Of a DNA stretch of 55,659 nucleotides, positions 7,441 to 44,654 are shown one piece after another. Below the pieces are notes generated by a model, which was given only the letters and a program-made list of their open reading frames with translations, had not been told where the DNA came from and did not search any database. The translations under genes and the position numbers were made by a program. Every line of letters starts with the position of its first letter. Position 1 is the stretch's first letter. Source of the stretch: Alphaproteobacteria bacterium (GTDB lineage Bacteria > Pseudomonadota > Alphaproteobacteria > Bin95); assembly GCA_026710105.1 (NCBI GenBank), contig JAPORR010000056.1:1-55659 (forward strand), read 5' to 3'.

Positions 7441-7498
7441 GGATGCTCTCGGATGCTCTCGGATGCTCTCGGATGCTCTCGGATGCTCTCGGATGCTC
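7441..7498. repeat. 10-bp tandem repeat GGATGCTCTC, five exact copies plus a partial
   Basis: Exact copies start at 7441, 7451, 7461, 7471 and 7481, followed by GGATGCTC. The array fills the gap between the helicase stop (7437) and the ribosome site of the small paralogue. A 10-bp period places each unit on one face of the helix, as in iterons or operator arrays. An in-frame upstream extension of the next gene through the array is possible but lacks a ribosome site. Confidence 0.9.
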
Positions 7499-9226: not shown

Positions 9227-9242
9227 CCCTATCGCGGAAATG

Positions 9243-9270
9243 ACAAGGCCGGAGTTGCCCCCGGCCCTGT
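9243..9270 (+). terminator. GC-rich hairpin between chaperone and tape measure
   Basis: GGCCGG (9247-9252) pairs with CCGGCC (9261-9266), extended by ACA/TGT across one mismatch, with an 8-base loop. There is no T-run, so it is at best a weak terminator or an RNA processing/attenuation structure. It directly precedes the pentanucleotide tract. Confidence 0.4.
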
Positions 9271-9275
9271 CCCTC

Positions 9276-9340
9276 GCCTCGCCGGGCCCGGCCACGCCTA
9301 GCCACGCCTCGCCATGCCCGGCCAAGCCTCGCCGCGCCAT
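9276..9340. repeat. Degenerate pentanucleotide tract (GCCNN), copy 1
   Basis: GCC recurs every 5 bases at 9276, 9281, 9286 and so on to 9336: thirteen in phase, with the two following bases varying freely. The phase continues as GTC at 9341 and 9346. It occupies the gap between the tail chaperone and the tape measure. The same design, much longer, lies at 43502-43760. Confidence 0.9.
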
Positions 9341-22769: not shown

Positions 22770-24221
22770 ATGGCTTCCATCCGCGACACCCTCCTCGGCG
22801 TCTTTGGCTTCGGTGAGTCGCGCAAGCGCGTGTCTCCGACGCGATGGGCCGGGGCGGCGGGCTTCTCCGTCTACTCCGGCTACCTCGAAGCCGACGAGGT
22901 CGATAAAGACCTCGCCAACCACGAGTCCCGCCACCGGCTCTACCAGTCCATTCTCGCCAACACGTCCATCGTGGCGGCGTCGGTGCGCTACTACTTGAAC
23001 CTCGTCTCGCGGGTGGACTGGAAGTTCGAGCCCGCCGATGACTCGGCCGAAGCCCAGCGCTACGCCGAGCTCATCGAAGAAATGCTGATGGACGACATCC
23101 GGCGTCCCTGGCACAACATCGTGCGGAACATGGCGATGTACAGGTTCTACGGATTCTCGGTCCAGGAGTGGATTGCGGCCCGCACTGACGCGGGCTACCT
23201 CACATTCACGGACTTGCGCCAACGTCCGCAGCACACCATTGAGCGCTGGGACATGGACCTCGACTCCGGGCGTCCGCGCGGCATGGTGCAGCGCGTCCCG
23301 CAGGATTCGAGCTACTTGTACCTGCCGCGCGACAAGGTCGTGTACGTGGTGGACGACGCGCTCACCGATATGCCGAACGGGTGGGGGCTGTTTCGCCACC
23401 TGGCCGAGCCCGCGAATCGCTTGAAGCGCTTCCAGCAGCTCGAGGGCTTCGGCTTCGAGGTGGACTTGCGGAACATTCCCGTGGGCCGGGTGCCGCTTGA
23501 GCAACTTGCCGCGGCGGTGAAGGCCGGGACAATCAACGAGAAGGATGCCGAGGAGCAGATTCGGCCCATCAAAGACTTCGTGCAGAACCACGTGCGGAGT
23601 CCGAAGCTCGGTCTGCTGCTGGATTCGCGGATGCACGAGACGCAGGACGACGCCGCGCGTCCGGTGAGCAACACCCCGCTCTACAGCATGGAGCTGCTGT
23701 CGGGCTCGCAGACGAGCCTTGCGGACTCTGCGCGCGCGATAGAGCGGCTCAATCGTGAGATGGCCCGCATCATGGGGACGGAGCAGCTCCTCCTCGGCAG
23801 CGATAGTGTCGGCTCCTACGCGCTCGCCCAGGACAAGACCGGCCAGTTCTACATCCTGTGCGAGTCGAGTCTGGCCGAGATCCGCCAGTCCGTGCGACTC
23901 GACCTCGTGGAGCGGGCGTTCATCCTGAACGGCTGGCCGCTGGAGATGATGCCGGAGCCCCGCACCGCGGCGGTGCGCCAGTCCACGGTGGAGGAAATTG
24001 CCGAGGCGTTGAAGAGCATGGCGACGGCGGGCCTCGTGCTGATGCCGGGCGACCCGGTGGAGAATCAGGTCCGCGACCTGCTGGGCGTCGAGCACGTGCC
24101 GGACGAGCTCTCGATGATGCGCATGATGGACGCGATGTCGGGTGGCGCCGAGGGCGACCAGGGCGGCGGTACGGGCACGGCGGAGGGGGATGACGACCTG
24201 GAGGGGGTGCAGGACGAATGA
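22770..24221 (+). CDS. Portal protein (DUF935-like)
   Basis: 483 aa. ESRHRLYQSILANTSIVAAS, YYLNLVSRVDWKFEPADDSA, WHNIVRNMAMYRFYGFSVQE and LLLGSDSVGSYALAQDKTGQ are typical of Mu gp29/DUF935-type portals, the dodecameric DNA gate of the capsid. Length suits the family. The C-terminus ends in an acidic, Gly-rich tail. A methyltransferase fusion gene follows with ATGA overlap, and connector proteins and the terminase come after it. Confidence 0.9.
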   Translation: MASIRDTLLGVFGFGESRKRVSPTRWAGAAGFSVYSGYLEADEVDKDLANHESRHRLYQSILANTSIVAASVRYYLNLVSRVDWKFEPADDSAEAQRYAELIEEMLMDDIRRPWHNIVRNMAMYRFYGFSVQEWIAARTDAGYLTFTDLRQRPQHTIERWDMDLDSGRPRGMVQRVPQDSSYLYLPRDKVVYVVDDALTDMPNGWGLFRHLAEPANRLKRFQQLEGFGFEVDLRNIPVGRVPLEQLAAAVKAGTINEKDAEEQIRPIKDFVQNHVRSPKLGLLLDSRMHETQDDAARPVSNTPLYSMELLSGSQTSLADSARAIERLNREMARIMGTEQLLLGSDSVGSYALAQDKTGQFYILCESSLAEIRQSVRLDLVERAFILNGWPLEMMPEPRTAAVRQSTVEEIAEALKSMATAGLVLMPGDPVENQVRDLLGVEHVPDELSMMRMMDAMSGGAEGDQGGGTGTAEGDDDLEGVQDE

Positions 24222-25450
24222 ACGTCGAGCCCCGCGCCATCGACTCACTGACGCCCTACGACCGGAACGCGAAGACGCATCCGGCCGCGCAGGTGGACCT
24301 CATCCGCCGCAGCATCACCGAGTACGGCTGGACCGTTCCGGTGCTGATTGACGCGGACGGTAGCGTGATTGCGGGCCACGGACGCATCGAGGCCGCGAAA
24401 GCGCTCGGGATGGCCGAGGTGCCGACCATCCAGCTTGACCACCTCACGCCCGCGCAGGTGCGTGCGTACCGGCTCGCGGACAACAAGCTCACGGAGCTCG
24501 GCGCATGGGACGACGGGCTGCTATCCGAGGAGCTCAAGCGGCTCCTGGATGACGATTTCGACTTGACCCTGACGGGCTTCGACGATGCCGAGACGGCGCG
24601 CCTGCTGGCGATGGTCAATGGCGACGCCCCGGGCGAGGATGACGTGGCGCCCGACCCGCCCGCCGACCCGGTGACCAAGCCGGGCGACCTCTGGGTGTTG
24701 GGGCGCCACCGGCTGGTGTGCGGGGATGCGACCGATGCAGACGTGGTGGCGCGGGCGCTGGCGGGAGCGACACCGCGGCTGATGGTGACCGACCCGCCGT
24801 ATGGGATTGATTACGACCCATCATGGCGAACATCGGACATTGCGCGAAGACACGTCAGGGAAGGGACAACTGCCGAAAGCATCGTGACGGACCGCGTGAA
24901 AGGGGATACGCGCACCGAATGGATGCGCGCAATTCTTCCTCATGTTTCATCCGTCGCCGTGATCTACATGTGGCACGCCGCGACGATGGCGGCTACGCAT
25001 TACACCGCGCTTGATGCGCTGAAATTTGAGGTTCGATCCGTCATCGTGTGGCGAAAGGATTGCGCCGTGATGTCGCGCGGCCACTACAACAACCAGTACG
25101 AGCCGTGCTTGTACGCTGTCCGTAAGGGGGAGACAGCGAAATGGATGGGCGGCACCAAAGAAAGTACAGTCTGGGACATCCATAATTTGCAAGGATGGGG
25201 ACGCAAGATGGCGGGCGAAGACGCGACCGGCCACCCCACCCAGAAGCCCCTCGAATGCATGGAGCGCCCCATCCGAAATCACAAGGGCGATTGCTACGAG
25301 CCTTTCGCCGGAAGCGGAACGACCCTTATCGCCGCCGAGCGCCAGAACCGCGCCTGCTACGCCATTGAGCTCGACCCCGGCTACTGCGATGTGATTGTCG
25401 AGCGGTGGCAGCAGCACACCGGCGAGACGGCGCGGAGGGAGGCGGCATGA
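24218..25450 (+). CDS. ParB-like nuclease domain fused to DNA methyltransferase
   Basis: 410 aa. Residues 1-115 are a ParB/Srx-like domain (SLTPYDRNAKTHPAAQVD, DADGSVIAGHGRIEAAKALG, RLADNKLTEL). Residues 180-400 are an amino-methyltransferase: catalytic DPPYG at 192-196 comes first and the SAM-binding FAGSGTT at 363-369 last, the order of the beta class (N6-adenine or N4-cytosine). HPTQKPLE precedes the SAM motif. The fusion is common in phages and protects DNA from host restriction or marks it for packaging; its place between portal and connectors fits the latter idea. The stretch 24810-25230 is more AT-rich than the rest, suggesting a swapped target-recognition segment. Confidence 0.9.
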   Translation: MNVEPRAIDSLTPYDRNAKTHPAAQVDLIRRSITEYGWTVPVLIDADGSVIAGHGRIEAAKALGMAEVPTIQLDHLTPAQVRAYRLADNKLTELGAWDDGLLSEELKRLLDDDFDLTLTGFDDAETARLLAMVNGDAPGEDDVAPDPPADPVTKPGDLWVLGRHRLVCGDATDADVVARALAGATPRLMVTDPPYGIDYDPSWRTSDIARRHVREGTTAESIVTDRVKGDTRTEWMRAILPHVSSVAVIYMWHAATMAATHYTALDALKFEVRSVIVWRKDCAVMSRGHYNNQYEPCLYAVRKGETAKWMGGTKESTVWDIHNLQGWGRKMAGEDATGHPTQKPLECMERPIRNHKGDCYEPFAGSGTTLIAAERQNRACYAIELDPGYCDVIVERWQQHTGETARREAA

Positions 25451-33600: not shown

Positions 33601-34932
33601 GACTACCTGGAGCACGTCGGCGGACCGCCTCCGGTCGGTGACGGCGGCGGCACCACGCTCCACGTCCACTTCACGCCGGGCGGTGTGCCGGGGTCGCGCG
33701 AGCTCATCATCTACCGGGTGCTGGCGCTCGCGGACGCTCTGCCGAGCGCTCCGGCGTCGGCAACGTGGGACCACTCGACGGACACCCTCGGCGGGATTGC
33801 CGGGTGGTCACGCACGTTCCCCGCGTACAACCCCGAGACGCAGAAGGTCGCCTGCACGCTGGCGACCGGCTTCGGCAACGACACCCTGTCCGGGTGGTCG
33901 ACGGTGCGCACGTGCGAGTCGAGCGGTGACCTGAACGCGGTCTACCGCCGCGAGCCGTCGGGCACTACGCCCGCGCGTCCGGCGACGGGTGAGGACGCGG
34001 TGCCGACGGGCTGGACGGACATCGGCTCCGCGCTCACGGGCGCGGGGCTCGCGTGGGTGACGGTCGGGCATCGGCCCTACGGCTCGGCCACGTGGACGTG
34101 GTCGACACCATCGCGCATCGCGGCGCTCGATGGCATCGACGGCACCGACGGCACCGACGGCGAGGGCGTGGAGTACATCTTCTGCTCCTCGCCCGACGGC
34201 GTGCGCATTACTGGCGCGGGGAACCTGCCGCTCGCGTCGATGAACTACGACATCGACCAGCTGCGGACTTCGGGTGGCGTCCAGCGCGGGGCCTTCCGGT
34301 ACTACGACGGCACGCCGCCTGACCTTTCGACGACCCGTCCCTACTCCATTCGCTTCCGCCGGGGCGTCGCTGGGCAGCCCGCGCAGAACGACGACATCGG
34401 CGACGTGCCCTGGATTCAAGAAGCGTCGGTGAAGAACGTCGGCGACGACGGCGTGGCCGGCGTCGATGGCCAGCCCGGACAACCGGGTACGCCAGGTGTT
34501 GACGGGCCTCCGGGATTGCGGGGCCTCACCGGCCCTCCGGGGTCCATCGGAGGCATCGGCCCCCCTGGAGGCACGGGGCCTCCGGGATTGCGGGGCCTCA
34601 CCGGCCCTCCGGGGTCCATCGGAGGCATCGGCCCCCCTGGAGGCACGGGGCCTCCGGGAACACTAGGGCCTCCGGGAAGTCCGGGGGGGCCGGGAGCAAG
34701 AGGCGGGCCGGGGCCTCCGGGCGGCGACGGGCCGCCAGGGCCTCCGGGGCCGGGGTTGAGCGGCAGATTCGTTCAGAATGTGCGGGTTACTGCTGACACC
34801 ACAAGGACAGGCAGCGGACAGAATTGCTCGCGGCCGATGGTCAATCGTTTATCTTGGAGCGTTTCAAATCAAGGCTCAAACGGGCTTTCGGGAACCTTGA
34901 CCGTTCATGGAACCGAAACGTGCGTGCGATAG
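30664..34932 (+). CDS. Tail tip / central fibre protein (J-like) with collagen-like C-terminus
   Basis: 1422 aa, GTG start. The N-terminal 400 residues ([58 protein letters not shown]) are of the tail-tip attachment J/TipJ family. Two FN3-like segments follow at about 620-730. Then comes a duplicated module of about 135 residues (about 730-890 and 1015-1165; [20 protein letters not shown] and [20 protein letters not shown]). From about residue 1265 to 1365 there are Gly-X-Y triplets ([20 protein letters not shown]), i.e. a collagen triple-helix stalk, capped by a short Ser/Cys-containing tip. It would be the receptor-facing central fibre. Confidence 0.9.
34504..34647 (+). repeat. Perfect 72-bp tandem duplication in the collagen-like segment
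   Basis: 34504-34575 and 34576-34647 are identical, encoding 24 residues or eight Gly-X-Y triplets each. Identity at the DNA level implies a very recent duplication or gene conversion. Unequal recombination here would change stalk length. Confidence 0.9.
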
Positions 34933-39575: not shown

Positions 39576-40250
39576 GTGGCGGTGGACATCTCGGCGGTGC
39601 GGGACGTGGTGTACATCCGATTCATGGATAGGTTTGAGGGCGAGTACAACGCTCGGATTCGGCCGCCGCAAACCCCACTCCCCGCTCGCTTCATGCGGTC
39701 GTTCAAGGAAGGGGGGCGGCTCTCCCTGTCCGGCGAGATTGGCCCCCAGCCGAACGACATGGATTTCTGGGTGCGACTCGTGCTGCGTCACAACGGGCGG
39801 CGACAGACATCAATGGGGCGGGCGCCAAAGCGCCGATTCCGCACCGATGGCAGTATCATCTTTGCCGTTTTCGTCCCGCTCCAGTCTAACAACCAAGCGC
39901 CGATTCTCGACGTGGACACCGCGATGGGTGCGGCGTGTGCGGTGTTCGACTCGATGCGGCTAGAGTCGGAGGCGGTGTTCTGGGATGCGCGGCCGGGGCT
40001 GATTGCGCGGACGGGCCGCGAGGCACTGAAAGTGCCGTGGACGCAAGAGCGGTGCCGGATGGCCGAAGAAGCGGATGATTTCGACGCCGCCGACCCGAGC
40101 ACCTGGTCCGACGAATACAAGTGCTGGTGCATTCCCCCCGACGCCCCACTTATCACCACCTACGGCGCCGTGCCCCGCGAGGAAGCGCCGGAGGGGCAGT
40201 GGCTCCCGGCCGTCGTCGAGGTGCCATTCTCCTACGACGAGATGGCCTGA
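39576..40250 (+). CDS. Probable tail terminator protein
   Basis: 224 aa, GTG start two bases after the neck gene. Residues 1-135 show the alpha/beta pattern of tail terminators (IRFMDRFEGEYN, then DFWVRLVLRHNGRRQTSMGR, GSIIFAVFVPLQSNNQ, DTAMGAACAVFDSMR). A C-terminal extension (EEADDFDAADPSTWSDEYKC) is unusual. Order neck-terminator-tube supports it. Confidence 0.65.
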   Translation: MAVDISAVRDVVYIRFMDRFEGEYNARIRPPQTPLPARFMRSFKEGGRLSLSGEIGPQPNDMDFWVRLVLRHNGRRQTSMGRAPKRRFRTDGSIIFAVFVPLQSNNQAPILDVDTAMGAACAVFDSMRLESEAVFWDARPGLIARTGREALKVPWTQERCRMAEEADDFDAADPSTWSDEYKCWCIPPDAPLITTYGAVPREEAPEGQWLPAVVEVPFSYDEMA

Positions 40251-40308
40251 CGTGACTTGGCGTGACGCGACGCAGCGTGACGAGATTGCGACAAGACACG
40301 ACATGGCG
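40249..40308. repeat. Degenerate pentanucleotide tract (GACNN), copy 1
   Basis: GAC (or one-base variants GGC, AGC, GAT) recurs every 5 bases at 40249, 40254, 40259, 40264, 40269, 40274, 40279 and 40284, then with a one-base slip at 40290, 40295, 40300 and 40305. It fills the space between the terminator-protein stop and the stop of the convergent leftward gene. Confidence 0.85.
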
Positions 40309-40318
40309 GGTTAGGTTG

Positions 40319-40777
40319 TCAGAGACTATTCCATAAAGTATCTGCGGCCTCCACCTGCGCGTCAGACAGCGCAAGCCTGTATCGGCCAAGCCACGCGCGC
40401 AGATCCGCCTTCGCTTGCAATCGAAGTTCGGTATGCCCTTCTTCCGTATCGGCGAGAATGTAGCCGCCGCCGTCTTTTCGCTTTTCGAGTGGCGACAGCA
40501 GCATCGGGCCGACTTCCAGTTGAATGTCTCCGCCTTCGGCGATATCGACTGTCTCAATCGCTTCGCGGCGGATGCGGATGCGCGTGAACTGGCGTGCTTG
40601 CCATAACCGATACTTGCGGGCGGCTTCTGAATCGTCCCAGTCGAACCAGTGATGTGCGGGATGATTCGGTGATTGAGCGACCTGTAGAAACCCCTCCGCA
40701 GTGAATTCGCCAAACTCTACAATGTGCGCACGGACAATCTCGGCGCGTATTTCTGGCGTGTACTGTAACTTGCTCAT
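40319..40777 (-). CDS. Conserved phage hypothetical protein on a leftward cassette
   Basis: 152 aa from MSKLQYTPEIRAEIVRAHIV (AAGGAG before the ATG). NHPAHHWFDWDDSEAARKYR followed by LWQARQFTRIRIR and a helical end (LRAWLGRYRLALSDAQVEAA) is a family seen in many phages and prophages; its role is unknown to me. DNA is more AT-rich than the late genes around it. Both ends are bordered by GACNN pentanucleotide tracts. Confidence 0.75.
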   Translation of the reverse strand: MSKLQYTPEIRAEIVRAHIVEFGEFTAEGFLQVAQSPNHPAHHWFDWDDSEAARKYRLWQARQFTRIRIRREAIETVDIAEGGDIQLEVGPMLLSPLEKRKDGGGYILADTEEGHTELRLQAKADLRAWLGRYRLALSDAQVEAADTLWNSL

Positions 40778-40796
40778 GGTGTACTCCTTGATGACC

Positions 40797-40884
40797 GACG
40801 TGACTCGACGCGACACGACACAGCGTGACGTGACTTGACCCGACTTGATCCAACCGGACCCAGCACGACGAGACAGAACGCGAC
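40797..40884. repeat. Degenerate pentanucleotide tract (GACNN), copy 2
   Basis: Eighteen consecutive units in exact 5-base phase from 40797 to 40882; the core is GAC thirteen times and AGC, AAC or GAT in the others. It fills the whole gap between the start region of the gene at 40777 and the stop of the next leftward gene at 40892. Confidence 0.9.
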
Positions 40885-40891
40885 CGACGCT

Positions 40892-41626
40892 CTACAGCCT
40901 CGACTCTACTTCCGCATCAAACTCCGCCAACAATTCTGCCGATTCCAAATCAAACGGCACTGGTGTCTTGATGGCGGCCCATTGCGCGTCAGCGTCTAGC
41001 AGCGTATCGGGGATTGTGTTTGCCGGAGCAAACGTTCCCGCGCTGCCTTTCCCCTTCTCTTGTCGTTCGTCACCGATACCGCAAATCGTCCCTGCATTGG
41101 CCAGTAGCGTCAGAATCTCTTTTTTCGATAGAGACAACTTGGCAAACTGGATGCGTATCTCCGTCGCCCACTCGGCAAAGTACGGGCGGGTGCGAACATC
41201 GGGAGTCCGGTTGATGTCCGCCGAACGCATGATGGTCATGCGCAACCTCGGAATGCCGTAAATCGGTACATATTCGTCAGGGATAAATACCAGTCGAGAT
41301 ACGTCTGTTTTCCGAATCCCTGGGGTCATAAGCGCCGCCGTGCCCATCGCCGCCTTGATCGACATGGCGGGAAACCGGACGTGAGAGCGAGGATGCCAGC
41401 CGCGATCAACGTACATCGCATCGCGGTATTCGGTGCGTGGGTCGTGCTTGATAAGTTTGCGTTCGGCAAGCGTCTTCTTTTGGGCGCCAATCAATAACTG
41501 ACGCCTTGCCTTCGCCGACATGCGATTGATGTACAACCCAGTGCGACCCACGAGACGGACGTTGATCTCGTCCATCTTGAGCGGGGGGATGCTGATTACA
41601 TCGGGGGCTTTCTTGGCTGTCGCCAT
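40892..41626 (-). CDS. Phage protein of the 'LMHN...GxGDxR' family, divergent member
   Basis: 244 aa from MATAKKAPDVI (GGAGG before the ATG). INVRLVGRTGLYINRMS opens the fold; FPAMSIKAAMGTAA, RTRPYFAEWATEIRIQF and GIGDERQEKGKGSAGTF match, in order, IPEGAIRSMIETGA, RTRARFEPWGCTFRLD and GLGDWRPEKSGSHGRF of the gene at 43762. An acidic C-terminal tail follows. The family is common in phages, function unknown. The final glycine-rich loop and alternating strands/helices recall RAMP (Cas7-like) folds; this is inference. The gene is AT-richer than its neighbours. Confidence 0.75.
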   Translation of the reverse strand: MATAKKAPDVISIPPLKMDEINVRLVGRTGLYINRMSAKARRQLLIGAQKKTLAERKLIKHDPRTEYRDAMYVDRGWHPRSHVRFPAMSIKAAMGTAALMTPGIRKTDVSRLVFIPDEYVPIYGIPRLRMTIMRSADINRTPDVRTRPYFAEWATEIRIQFAKLSLSKKEILTLLANAGTICGIGDERQEKGKGSAGTFAPANTIPDTLLDADAQWAAIKTPVPFDLESAELLAEFDAEVESRL

Positions 41627-41803: not shown

Positions 41804-43462
41804 ATGAGCGCCGTCGATGCCAATACCATTCAACTCGCAGTCGCGCGACAGACCGCCCTCGGTGTGCGTGCTTCCGCCGGGGTCCGACAGCTCGAACCGA
41901 ACTCTGACCCGGCCCCCACCTTCGCGCCGGACATCACCAAGATTGCCCGGACGCCGATTTCCCGACGCCTGTCTCGACGCAAGGGCACGCCGACCGCACT
42001 GGCGGCCAACGTCTCGTTCGGTGAGGACATCACCTACTCGTCGCTCCCGTATTGGCTGGAGGCCGCGCTGTACTCGACTTGGCGCAATGGTCAAGAGCGG
42101 CTGATGGACCCGGACAGCGTCGCGGCGGGCTTCACGTTTCCCAACAACTCGTTCAACGCGGGCGCTATGGCGCGCCTAACCGCGAAGCTGCCTCCCAATC
42201 GGGGATTGCTCTGGGCGGAGGGCTTTACCAGCGCACGGAACAACGGCCTCAAGCTGCGCGCAGGGGCTGTCACTGCAAACACGATTCCCGCCACCGACGC
42301 GGATGCGGCTTCGACCGCGCTCGTAGCAGAGCCCGCGCCCGCTGATGCGCGGATATCGCTTGCCGGATTTCGTCTGGCGGGGGCTGGGCAGCAGACCTGG
42401 GCATGGGACGAAGACTCCCGCCTTGCGACCCTGACCGGCGCTGCGAATGCCGTCTCGAATGGCATGGGACTTGGCGAGGGGCTGGTGAACGACGGGCAAG
42501 CGGCTAATCGGAACAAGCCACTGTCGGTCGGTCAGACCGTGCACATCGGCTCCATTCTCGCTGACGGTGGCGCGCTCGGGCGGGGACTGCGCATCGAAGG
42601 CAATGGCGGGAGCGCCGGCGTGACCGGCTTCGCTCGGCTGGTCCGATTCGAGGAAAATTCGCTTATCTTCGACCGCGTGGATACGGCGCTGCAAATGAAC
42701 TTTGCGCTTCCGAGCACGCCCGCCAACGTCATCGACATCCTGTTCGGCGACTTCCTCACCGACGAGGCAATCGACGACGACTACTACGCGCGCCACCTGC
42801 ATACCCTGGAGCTCGTCTCGCCCGACCTCGAAGGCGAGGACGCGGCGACGGCCGACGATGGCTACGAGTACGCGGAGGACCAAGTGGTAGCCACGCTCGG
42901 GCTCAATTTCCCGCTCGAAGACAAGGCCACCATGACGGTGAACCTCGTCGGCACGGACATCAGCCCGCCTTCCACCGTGCGGAGTGCGGGCTTCGACAGC
43001 CAAGCCGAGCCGCTGCACACCGAGGCCTACAACACGGCCTCGGACTTCGCCCGGCTTCGGCTGACCGACGAGAATGACGAGCTGCTGACCGAGGACTTCA
43101 CGGCGGTCACCATCAACGTCAACCCGCAGTCCGGCACCGAATCCGTGCTTGGCCAGCTCGGCCCCCGATTCCTCAACCGCGGCATCCTCCAGTGCGACAT
43201 CGACGCCACCGTGATATTCGCGGACGACGGGATTCCGAGGGCGATTCGGGACAACGAAACCACGCGATTTGATTTGATTTCGAGGAACAACGACGGGGTG
43301 TTTGTCCTGGATCTGCCAAGCCAAACGCTCGGAGGCGGCGGCAGAGAATATCCGACAAATCAAAAAGTTACGCTCTCAACGACAGGTGAATCCTTCGAGG
43401 ATGAGACGTTCGGACGAAGCCTGATGTGCTCATTGATTCCTGCCCCAATCCCGATCACGTAG
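41804..43462 (+). CDS. Major tail tube protein
   Basis: 552 aa. AVARQTALGVRASAGVRQLE at the N-terminus, the strand pattern SFGEDITYSSLPYWLEAALY, repeated TVHIGSILADGG-type segments and LNFPLEDKATMTVNLVGTDI fit the Phage_tube_2 type of tail tube protein, which stacks as hexamers along the tape measure. The insertion at about 100-330 makes it longer than usual and may form surface domains. It follows neck and terminator, as expected. Confidence 0.75.
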   Translation: MSAVDANTIQLAVARQTALGVRASAGVRQLEPNSDPAPTFAPDITKIARTPISRRLSRRKGTPTALAANVSFGEDITYSSLPYWLEAALYSTWRNGQERLMDPDSVAAGFTFPNNSFNAGAMARLTAKLPPNRGLLWAEGFTSARNNGLKLRAGAVTANTIPATDADAASTALVAEPAPADARISLAGFRLAGAGQQTWAWDEDSRLATLTGAANAVSNGMGLGEGLVNDGQAANRNKPLSVGQTVHIGSILADGGALGRGLRIEGNGGSAGVTGFARLVRFEENSLIFDRVDTALQMNFALPSTPANVIDILFGDFLTDEAIDDDYYARHLHTLELVSPDLEGEDAATADDGYEYAEDQVVATLGLNFPLEDKATMTVNLVGTDISPPSTVRSAGFDSQAEPLHTEAYNTASDFARLRLTDENDELLTEDFTAVTINVNPQSGTESVLGQLGPRFLNRGILQCDIDATVIFADDGIPRAIRDNETTRFDLISRNNDGVFVLDLPSQTLGGGGREYPTNQKVTLSTTGESFEDETFGRSLMCSLIPAPIPIT

Positions 43463-43471
43463 CGGCTGAAT

Positions 43472-43497
43472 GACTCCGGGGCTTGCGCCCCGGAGTC
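43472..43497. terminator. Strong 11-bp hairpin after the tail tube gene
   Basis: GACTCCGGGGC (43472-43482) and GCCCCGGAGTC (43487-43497) pair perfectly around a TTGC loop, 10 bases after the stop codon. There is no T-run, but the stem is very stable. A terminator for the tube transcript is likely; being symmetric it could also act on leftward transcripts. Confidence 0.65.
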
Positions 43498-43501
43498 CCT
43501 C

Positions 43502-43760
43502 GCCGCGCCATGCCAGGCCGAGCCAAGCCCAGCCACGCCGTGCCAGGCCTTGCCGAGCCATGCCATGCCTCGAAGTCCTTGCCTTGCCATGCCGCGCCAG
43601 ACCCTGCCTTGCCCCGCCATAACCCGCCATGACCCGCCATGCCTCGAAGTCCCTGCCTCGCCCCGCCCAGCCTAGCCACGCCATGCCACGAAGTCCTCGC
43701 CGCGCCATGCCGAGCCCAGCCGAACCAAGCCTTGCCGAGCCTTGCCATGCCTTGCCCAGC
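43502..43760. repeat. Degenerate pentanucleotide tract (GCCNN), copy 2, with TCGAAGTCC breaks
   Basis: About 50 units of GCC plus two free bases in 5-base phase. The phase slips three times, each time at CGAAGTCC embedded in GCCATGCC(T/A)CGAAGTCC (near 43567, 43641 and 43688), so the tract is built of super-units. It spans the entire gap between the tube gene hairpin and the stop of the convergent leftward gene (43762). Any frame through it reads as chance Trp/Gly/Arg/Ala/His peptide. Confidence 0.9.
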
Positions 43761-43761
43761 C

Positions 43762-44355
43762 TCACAACACCTTCACTTCCGCTACCTCAAACCGCCCGTG
43801 ACTCCCTGACTTCTCCGGGCGCCAGTCACCGAGGCCGATGCGTCGGCCGCCGATATCTAGCCACGTCTCCAGTTGCTCGCGGTCCACAAGCTCGTCGTCA
43901 CAGTCGAGCCGGAACGTGCAACCCCAGGGCTCGAATCGAGCGCGGGTGCGCAACACGCGAGCTTTCCCCACCACGACCCCGACCGTGAACTGGGACGCTT
44001 TGCCGAGTTCCTCGGCCGTTGTGCCCATACCCTGGTCGTAATCGAACGCAGTCACCTTCTCGACCACCAGCCCCTCGCGGACTTGCGGTCCCTGCTTGAG
44101 CTTCCGTGCCCCCGTCTCGATCATTGATCGGATGGCTCCTTCCGGGATTGTCGGCGCTCCGTCCATGTCGAGCCAAAGACTGGTCTGGCATTCGAGCTCG
44201 GCAAGTCGCTTGTCGTCGGCCTCGGTGCGGTTGCTCCCACGCTTCCGGGCAATCTGCGCCTTTTCGAGGTTGGCTGGTGAACGGGTGTCGAGTCCAGCCG
44301 CGCCGTTGTGCATGATGAGTCCGCCAAGACCCTTGATGGTGACTTCGTATCGCAT
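43762..44355 (-). CDS. Phage protein of the 'LMHN...GLGDWRP' family
   Basis: 197 aa. EVTIKGLGGLIMHNGAAG at the N-terminus, KRGSNRTEADDKRLAELECQ and SLWLDMDGAPTIPEGAIRSM in the middle, and GLGDWRPEKSGSHGRFEV near the end are characteristic of a family common in actinophages and other phages of GC-rich hosts. No function is assigned. A divergent paralogue lies at 40892-41626. RAMP-like fold is suspected from the terminal glycine-rich loop. It overlaps the HNH reading frame upstream by 235 bases; family similarity from residue 1 fixes this start. Confidence 0.85.
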   Translation of the reverse strand: MRYEVTIKGLGGLIMHNGAAGLDTRSPANLEKAQIARKRGSNRTEADDKRLAELECQTSLWLDMDGAPTIPEGAIRSMIETGARKLKQGPQVREGLVVEKVTAFDYDQGMGTTAEELGKASQFTVGVVVGKARVLRTRARFEPWGCTFRLDCDDELVDREQLETWLDIGGRRIGLGDWRPEKSGSHGRFEVAEVKVL

Positions 44356-44654
44356 TGTCGGATTGCCTCTCTGAATATGCTGGTGAACTGCCAGATATCC
44401 CCGCCACCCTCGCGCACGAATCTGCGCAGCGTGGTGGCAAGGTCATGGCAGGGCTGACACAAGCTGGTGAGGTCGTCCGGCGTGCATTCCGTATGGTCCA
44501 TGTACGGCGGCGACAACTGGCCTCCGGCCCAATGGTGCCCGCCCTTGGTGGCCATGCGGTCACCGCAGAACTGGCAGACGCCACGAGACCGTGCGCGAGC
44601 CTTGTCGCTCGCCACGTAGAAAAGAGGGCCATACGGTTTGATAGACTTAGACAT
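44121..44654 (-). CDS. HNH-type zinc-finger nuclease candidate with overlapping tail
   Basis: 177 aa as read. Residues about 26-75 hold CQFCGD, HHWAGG, DHTEC and LCQPCHD, a Cys4 zinc frame around an H-rich centre as in HNH endonucleases. From about residue 100 the frame overlaps the next gene for 235 bases, and its composition (Ser/Thr/Pro/Arg) looks like a chance frame. The true protein may be shorter through a frameshift or sequence error, or the tail is real but unselected. The ribosome site is GAGGAG. A 10-bp hairpin lies in its leader. Confidence 0.6.
   Translation of the reverse strand: MSKSIKPYGPLFYVASDKARARSRGVCQFCGDRMATKGGHHWAGGQLSPPYMDHTECTPDDLTSLCQPCHDLATTLRRFVREGGGDIWQFTSIFREAIRQCDTKSPSRVLADSSCTTARLDSTPVHQPTSKRRRLPGSVGATAPRPTTSDLPSSNARPVFGSTWTERRQSRKEPSDQ

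Follow-up and report, generated by a model that had tools for sequence, protein, structure and literature searches.

VIPR, a recently reported CRISPR-related weapon with which a phage silences rival viruses, combines a RAMP protein encoded by the phage (Vipr) with an accessory gene and with Vipr-bound guide RNAs of ~100 nt that consist of GGY/NN repeats and read DNA with a 1-nt skip (PMC13142463). The guide core is given there as GGY or as an otherwise unspecified "related consensus". We came to this system through a literature search on pentanucleotide repeats in phages. In the type II VIPR of Escherichia phage SUSP1 (PMC13142463, PDB 36pp), as in the locus described here, the minimal locus consists of vipr, an accessory gene and pentanucleotide-repeat guides lying in the sense of vipr; the two loci also share a profile-homologous Vipr, and the guides here may likewise be decoded in codon frame with a 1-nt skip. 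Further relatives adjoin GGC/NN tracts in the mycobacteriophages Quico (gp57/gp58) and LittleE (gp34/gp33), and the backbone proteins of Class 1 CRISPR-Cas (Csm3/Cas7) offer a wider likeness in their RAMP fold with a glycine-rich loop and in RNA-guided recognition.

The window analyzed here, a stretch of 55,659 nucleotides, is one contig of a 3.35-Mb, 246-contig assembly and represents a tailed phage, with genes for portal, terminase, capsid, neck, tail terminator, tail tube and tail fibre; the candidate locus is thus encoded by a phage. It lies on the minus strand between two rightward genes, the tail terminator gene (39576-40250, phrog_179) and the tail tube gene (41804-43462, PF18906, phrog_290), and comprises, in minus-strand order, vipr2 (40892-41626), guide RNA A (vrRNA A, 40797-40886), an accessory-type (vap) gene that we call gene X (40319-40777) and guide RNA B (vrRNA B, 40249-40308). 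A second leftward VIPR block (43472-44654) stands on the other side of the tail tube gene. We consider it very probable that the block holding vipr2 is a VIPR locus with a GUC core, the second VIPR of its phage, carrying guides against rival phages. The tail terminator found no match among annotated phages, the tail tube is 32-34% identical to those of Roseobacter, Ruegeria, Shewanella and Pseudomonas phages, and IMG/VR yielded no close relative of either gene X or the tail tube.

The product of vipr2 is a Vipr (RAMP) protein of 244 amino acids, assigned to phrog_4652 and bearing an Arg145-x-Arg147 motif. Three results place it in the RAMP family: a profile led by vipr2 (profile A1) matches the SUSP1 Vipr of PDB 36pp (E=2.1e-25); an HMM of Vipr proteins recovers SUSP1 ALH47069 at 1.5e-47, at a locus that has GGY arrays, and also matches the Viprs of Quico and LittleE; and the AlphaFold (AF2) model of Vipr2 (pLDDT 94.4) adopts a RAMP fold of the Csm3/Cas7 type (best VIA Z, 9.9). 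Relatives of Vipr2 with 50% and 44% identity occur in plasmid loci of Sulfitobacter and Paracoccus, respectively (NZ_CP136687, NZ_CP040759), which share the order vipr, array, following gene and, in Sulfitobacter, the GGTCA tail motif of tract A, but have GGY as their core. The locus differs from the SUSP1 VIPR in its GUC rather than GGY core, in the family of its accessory gene, in the apparent lack of a structured 3' tail on either guide and in sharing its phage with another VIPR whose core is different, and from Quico and LittleE in that their core is GGC and the Quico array lies upstream of vipr. Unlike those of Class 1 CRISPR-Cas, its guides would be read in gapped pairs; a tandem-repeat scan found no CRISPR array of long, near-identical repeats with unique spacers, and neither Rfam nor PADLOC gave a match.

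The earlier note described a GACNN tract on each side of the leftward gene at 40319-40777, the right one with 18 units in one phase, and remarked that the core differs only in its middle base from that of the GCC tracts (9276-9340 and 43502-43763); these descriptions hold. In the right tract (40797-40884), 13 of the 18 units are exactly GAC, the remainder being AGC (two), AAC (two) and GAT, and its strict in-phase GAC score of 7.8 exceeds all of 200 first-order simulations of the window, whose maximum was 4; nowhere else does the 3.35-Mb assembly have a GACNN run of five exact units. The left tract (40249-40308) has 8 of 12 units exactly GAC and a one-base phase slip, and its score of 3 under strict GAC counting alone does not rise above chance (simulated mean, 2.7); we take the tract as real because of its place, its G-N-Y unit pattern and its decoding. 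The window contig accounts for every long GCC or GAC tract in the assembly. Read in the sense of vipr, tract A is GTCGC GTTCT GTCTC GTCGT GCTGG GTCCG GTTGG ATCAA GTCGG GTCAA GTCAC GTCAC GCTGT GTCGT GTCGC GTCGA GTCAC GTCGG-TCA, that is, 17 guide units followed by a GUC-GGUCA end, and tract B has 12 units with one extra base. The cores of both are mostly GUC, with GUU, GCU and AUC among them. Such G-N-Y cores with a period of five have the form of vrRNAs, a three-base core with a variable NN, and GUC/GUU fits only the "related consensus"; the GGY core of type II (SUSP1-like) systems is absent from tracts A and B, whereas the array beside vipr1, the other vipr gene of the phage, does have GGC. 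The end of tract A stands directly before the ribosome site of the next gene, where close relatives read GGC-GGTCA. Neither A nor B has a structured 3' tail (fold z 1.6 and 0.05).

To place these tracts among others, we surveyed 240 IMG/VR loci that had been retrieved by repeat pattern alone. A Vipr was present in 124 of the 171 loci with degenerate tracts (window included), against 1 of the 65 loci with microsatellites only. Each of the 125 typed Viprs, those with neighbouring tracts, has a single tract flavour, namely GGC in 83, GAC in 26, GTC in 14 and GCC in 2. The sense of GGC tracts follows that of vipr almost throughout (283 same, 9 opposite), and GTC tracts lie in the same sense in 43 cases and in the opposite sense, as GAC in the sense of vipr, in 90. 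In the three main flavours, the commonest core deviation is a C>T change at the third base (GGT 94, GAT 51, GTT 12); the mirror change, G>A at the first base, is rarer (AGC 16, AAC 21, ATC 0). Because C>T outnumbers G>A, by 12 to 0 in GTC tracts, we read GTC tracts in the direction of vipr, and this polarity, together with the GGTCA end common to the GGC arrays of the nearest relatives, gives GUC rather than GAC as the sense in the window. Two surveyed Viprs (L178, 3571-4341; L232, 2-385) adjoin tracts that read GCC in the sense of vipr, which reflects either opposite transcription or a fourth flavour.

The same counts bear on the possibility that Vipr2 does not use the GUC tracts, which would then be either decayed guides of the GGC kind or antisense guides of the GAC kind. 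The slip in tract B, the 5 of 18 units of tract A that depart from the main core and the lack of tail structure would all fit decay, but the one-base shift of the core is uniform across the tracts, the 12 GTT against 0 ATC fix the sense, GTC-core tracts stand beside Viprs in 14 loci, and A and B still decode to phage coding frames; we regard either reading as very unlikely. Guides A and B, with their GUC core, are most likely the partners of Vipr2.

Gene X (phrog_15946) is a probable vipr-accessory protein gene. The reality of this leftward gene is supported by a family found in 40 loci, all 40 of which also contain a vipr gene, as expected of the accessory component of a VIPR. The family includes Quico gp58 (E 2e-42), which the gene X HMM matched; the same HMM had no match to ALH47068 of SUSP1, the vap1 accessory protein of type II (SUSP1-like) systems. 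Around the 40 relatives of gene X, tracts lie on both sides in 6, only downstream in 16, only upstream in 14 and in a different order in 2, and are missing in 2. These arrangements speak to the proposal of the earlier note that the tracts are direct repeats bracketing a gene and that the gene is exchanged between phages by homologous recombination. A cassette of some kind is plausible: the gap between tail terminator and tail tube genes is 11-18 nt in five distant relatives, which lack at this very place the 1.55 kb of leftward genes seen here, and tract B abuts the stop codon of the neighbouring gene. However, the inserted block is vipr2, guide A, the vap gene and guide B, and the smaller unit that was proposed, gene X with its two tracts, is not the rule: just 6 of the 40 relatives have a tract on each side and 2 have none, while vipr is always present. 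A comparison with distant relatives found no evidence of breakpoints inside the tracts, and the tracts share little sequence on which recombination could act, because the NN positions vary freely. The sense of the tracts also tracks that of vipr, and the decoded sequences match phage genes in frame. An origin of the tracts as recombination arms is hardly credible on these grounds and is not needed to account for the locus; the tracts are best read as guide-RNA genes, since their polarity relative to vipr, their common tail motif and their decoding in coding frame are the behavior of guides.

The GCC tracts of the window, read on the strand of vipr, are canonical GGC/NN vrRNAs; they make up four guides that follow vipr1 and one orphan guide at 9.3 kb. 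The gene vipr1 (43762-44355, minus strand, phrog_4652) encodes a second, divergent Vipr, the partner of the GGC-core array (43472-43763, minus strand), whose four guides have 13, 7, 13 and 14 units as read and are joined by ..GGACTTCG(A/T). The last guide of the array ends in a hairpin (43472-43497, fold z -4.06), which the tail hairpin (9242-9271) of the 12-unit orphan guide (9242-9340, minus strand) resembles. The orphan lies 34 kb from vipr1 with a TATAAT box just upstream, and it adjoins the tape-measure gene, whose start it resembles. Just upstream of vipr1, an HNH-like open reading frame (44121-44654, minus strand; weak PHROG matches to HNH, E=1e-4) overlaps vipr1 by ~235 nt in another frame, which could be a frameshift or a real overlap; it is possibly an accessory gene, and no relatives of it were found in the surveyed loci. 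Within guide G3 of the array (43581-43645, minus strand), GGC cores stand beside GTC and GTT cores, which shows that a single guide can have mixed cores.

We decoded the guides by the published 1-nt-skip rule, with the skipped base placed at the codon wobble position (NNx codons); the tests were picked after the sequences had been read. Tract A decodes to ALSVGRG[NK]G[NK]TTVVA[ED]T, the Walker A motif of a terminase. A 20-base pattern taken from tract A matches viral contigs exactly at a single site, in frame within the Walker A of a terminase ATPase (PF03354), with which tract A agrees at 29 of 36 positions overall; in a terminase locus from the same bacterial genus, the site that fits tract A best is again the Walker A (24/36). 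The peptide alone gives a terminase PHROG match at E 0.13, and one antisense and one scrambled control give none. Four other guides resemble tail genes of the phage itself. Tract B, read antisense, decodes to ...AAV[DE]A[NK]T[IM], like the start MSAVDANTI of the phage's own tail tube, with seven consecutive units matching (1/400 shuffles). Guide G4 decodes to SA[IM][RS][DE][NK][HQ]TV[RS][FL][DE][IM][IM], to be compared with the tail-tube segment RAIRDNETTRFDLI (0/300, protein level), and guide G3 matches the C-terminus of the tail tube (1/300, protein level). The orphan decodes to A[ED][FL]R[IM][DE]VYVRP[ED], a variant of the start of the phage's own tape-measure protein, AEFRIDVRVDPS (2/300, protein level). 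Match counts at the DNA level between the window and A, B, G1, G3 or the orphan were not significant, tblastn and Pfam searches with the decoded peptides found nothing, and when 442 tracts were pooled and tested for the 1-nt skip on 2.2 Mb of fetched loci, no excess over controls appeared.

The likeness of decoded B, G3, G4 and orphan sequences to parts of the phage's own tail tube and tape-measure genes, some of which adjoin the guide itself, raises the alternative that the guides act at home, tuning or timing these genes. We think this unlikely: at the own sites, mismatches affect 8 of 24 NN positions for B, 8 of 28 for G4 and 7 of 24 for the orphan, and these mismatches look like amino-acid substitutions such as distinguish homologous proteins. 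Guide A, moreover, suggests a terminase of a different type from that of the phage itself, which falls in other PHROGs. The pattern suggests instead that the guides are aimed at related rival phages, and homologues of the tail tube gene would be the targets of B, G3 and G4. The decoded peptides point to a putative rival whose tail tube would start (M)-A-A-V-D-A-N-T-I and whose terminase would read ALSVGRGNGKTTVVAET. Searches of viral contigs, GTDB contigs and, allowing up to three mismatches, the genomes of relatives turned up no target that fits a guide along its full length. Guides that spell tail-tube, tape-measure and terminase segments of related phages support the notion of VIPR as an inter-phage weapon.

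Returning to the reading of the block as a VIPR directed at rivals, we propose that Vipr2, as a Cas7-like RAMP protein, would assemble on short minus-strand RNAs of the form (GUC-NN)n transcribed from both tracts, each GUC core being held, unpaired, by one Vipr subunit, and that the NN pairs would recognize double-stranded DNA in the pattern NNxNNx... Such a reading would let a guide tolerate synonymous changes in the target gene. The bound complex would then silence structural or packaging genes of competing phages, with gene X possibly acting as an accessory protein. In the same phage, vipr1, the GGC array and the orphan guide would work as a second VIPR, and confusion between the two sets of guides may be prevented by the middle base of their cores, U in one set and G in the other.

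A residue that could read this base emerged from the alignment of Viprs. Among well-filled columns, the strongest association with tract flavour is at the second Arg of the RxR motif, Arg147 of Vipr2. Outside a set of Phe-bearing rows, Arg occurs in all 89 rows with GGC or GTC tracts and in none of the four GAC rows (Leu, Gln, Leu, His), which gives a Fisher value of 3.4e-7, uncorrected for kinship or for the choice of column; on a quick tree, the non-Arg GAC Viprs have at least two origins. The Phe-bearing clade was left out of the rule, which is silent there; its 23 rows comprise 18 GAC, 3 GGC and 2 GTC. In nine held-out GGY-core Viprs with readable tract and residue, Arg is present in all nine, which covers one side of the rule only; a search for further GAC-core Viprs for this check found none. 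By its chemistry, arginine fits a keto group, as in G and U, better than the amino group of A. It is possible, and we advance it tentatively, that a Vipr reads the middle base of the core (G, A or U) as the address of its own system, with Arg147 accepting G or U but not A, so that two VIPRs could stand side by side without mixing their guides; the link of Arg147 to core flavour, seen in alignments, is a lead and not a proof.

The novelty of a GUC core is moderate, because VIPR itself has been published and its description mentions a "related consensus" (PMC13142463). If the interpretation given here is correct, the gapped guide code tolerates cores other than GGY, a single phage harbours two VIPRs that differ in their cores, the target genes of such guides can be read from sequence, and one amino acid and one RNA base can be named for how a primitive RAMP protein recognizes its own guides.

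The window contains other repeats as well. Nearly six perfect copies of GGATGCTCTC occur at 7441-7498, just after a primase/helicase gene; an 18-bp repeat, CGCGTCGCCGAACACCCG, is present in five and a half copies at 979-1077; and a 72-bp repeat (34504-34686; 2.2 copies, 100% identity) encodes a collagen-like stretch in a tail-fibre gene. At 24218-25450, a DNA methyltransferase is fused to a ParB-like domain.
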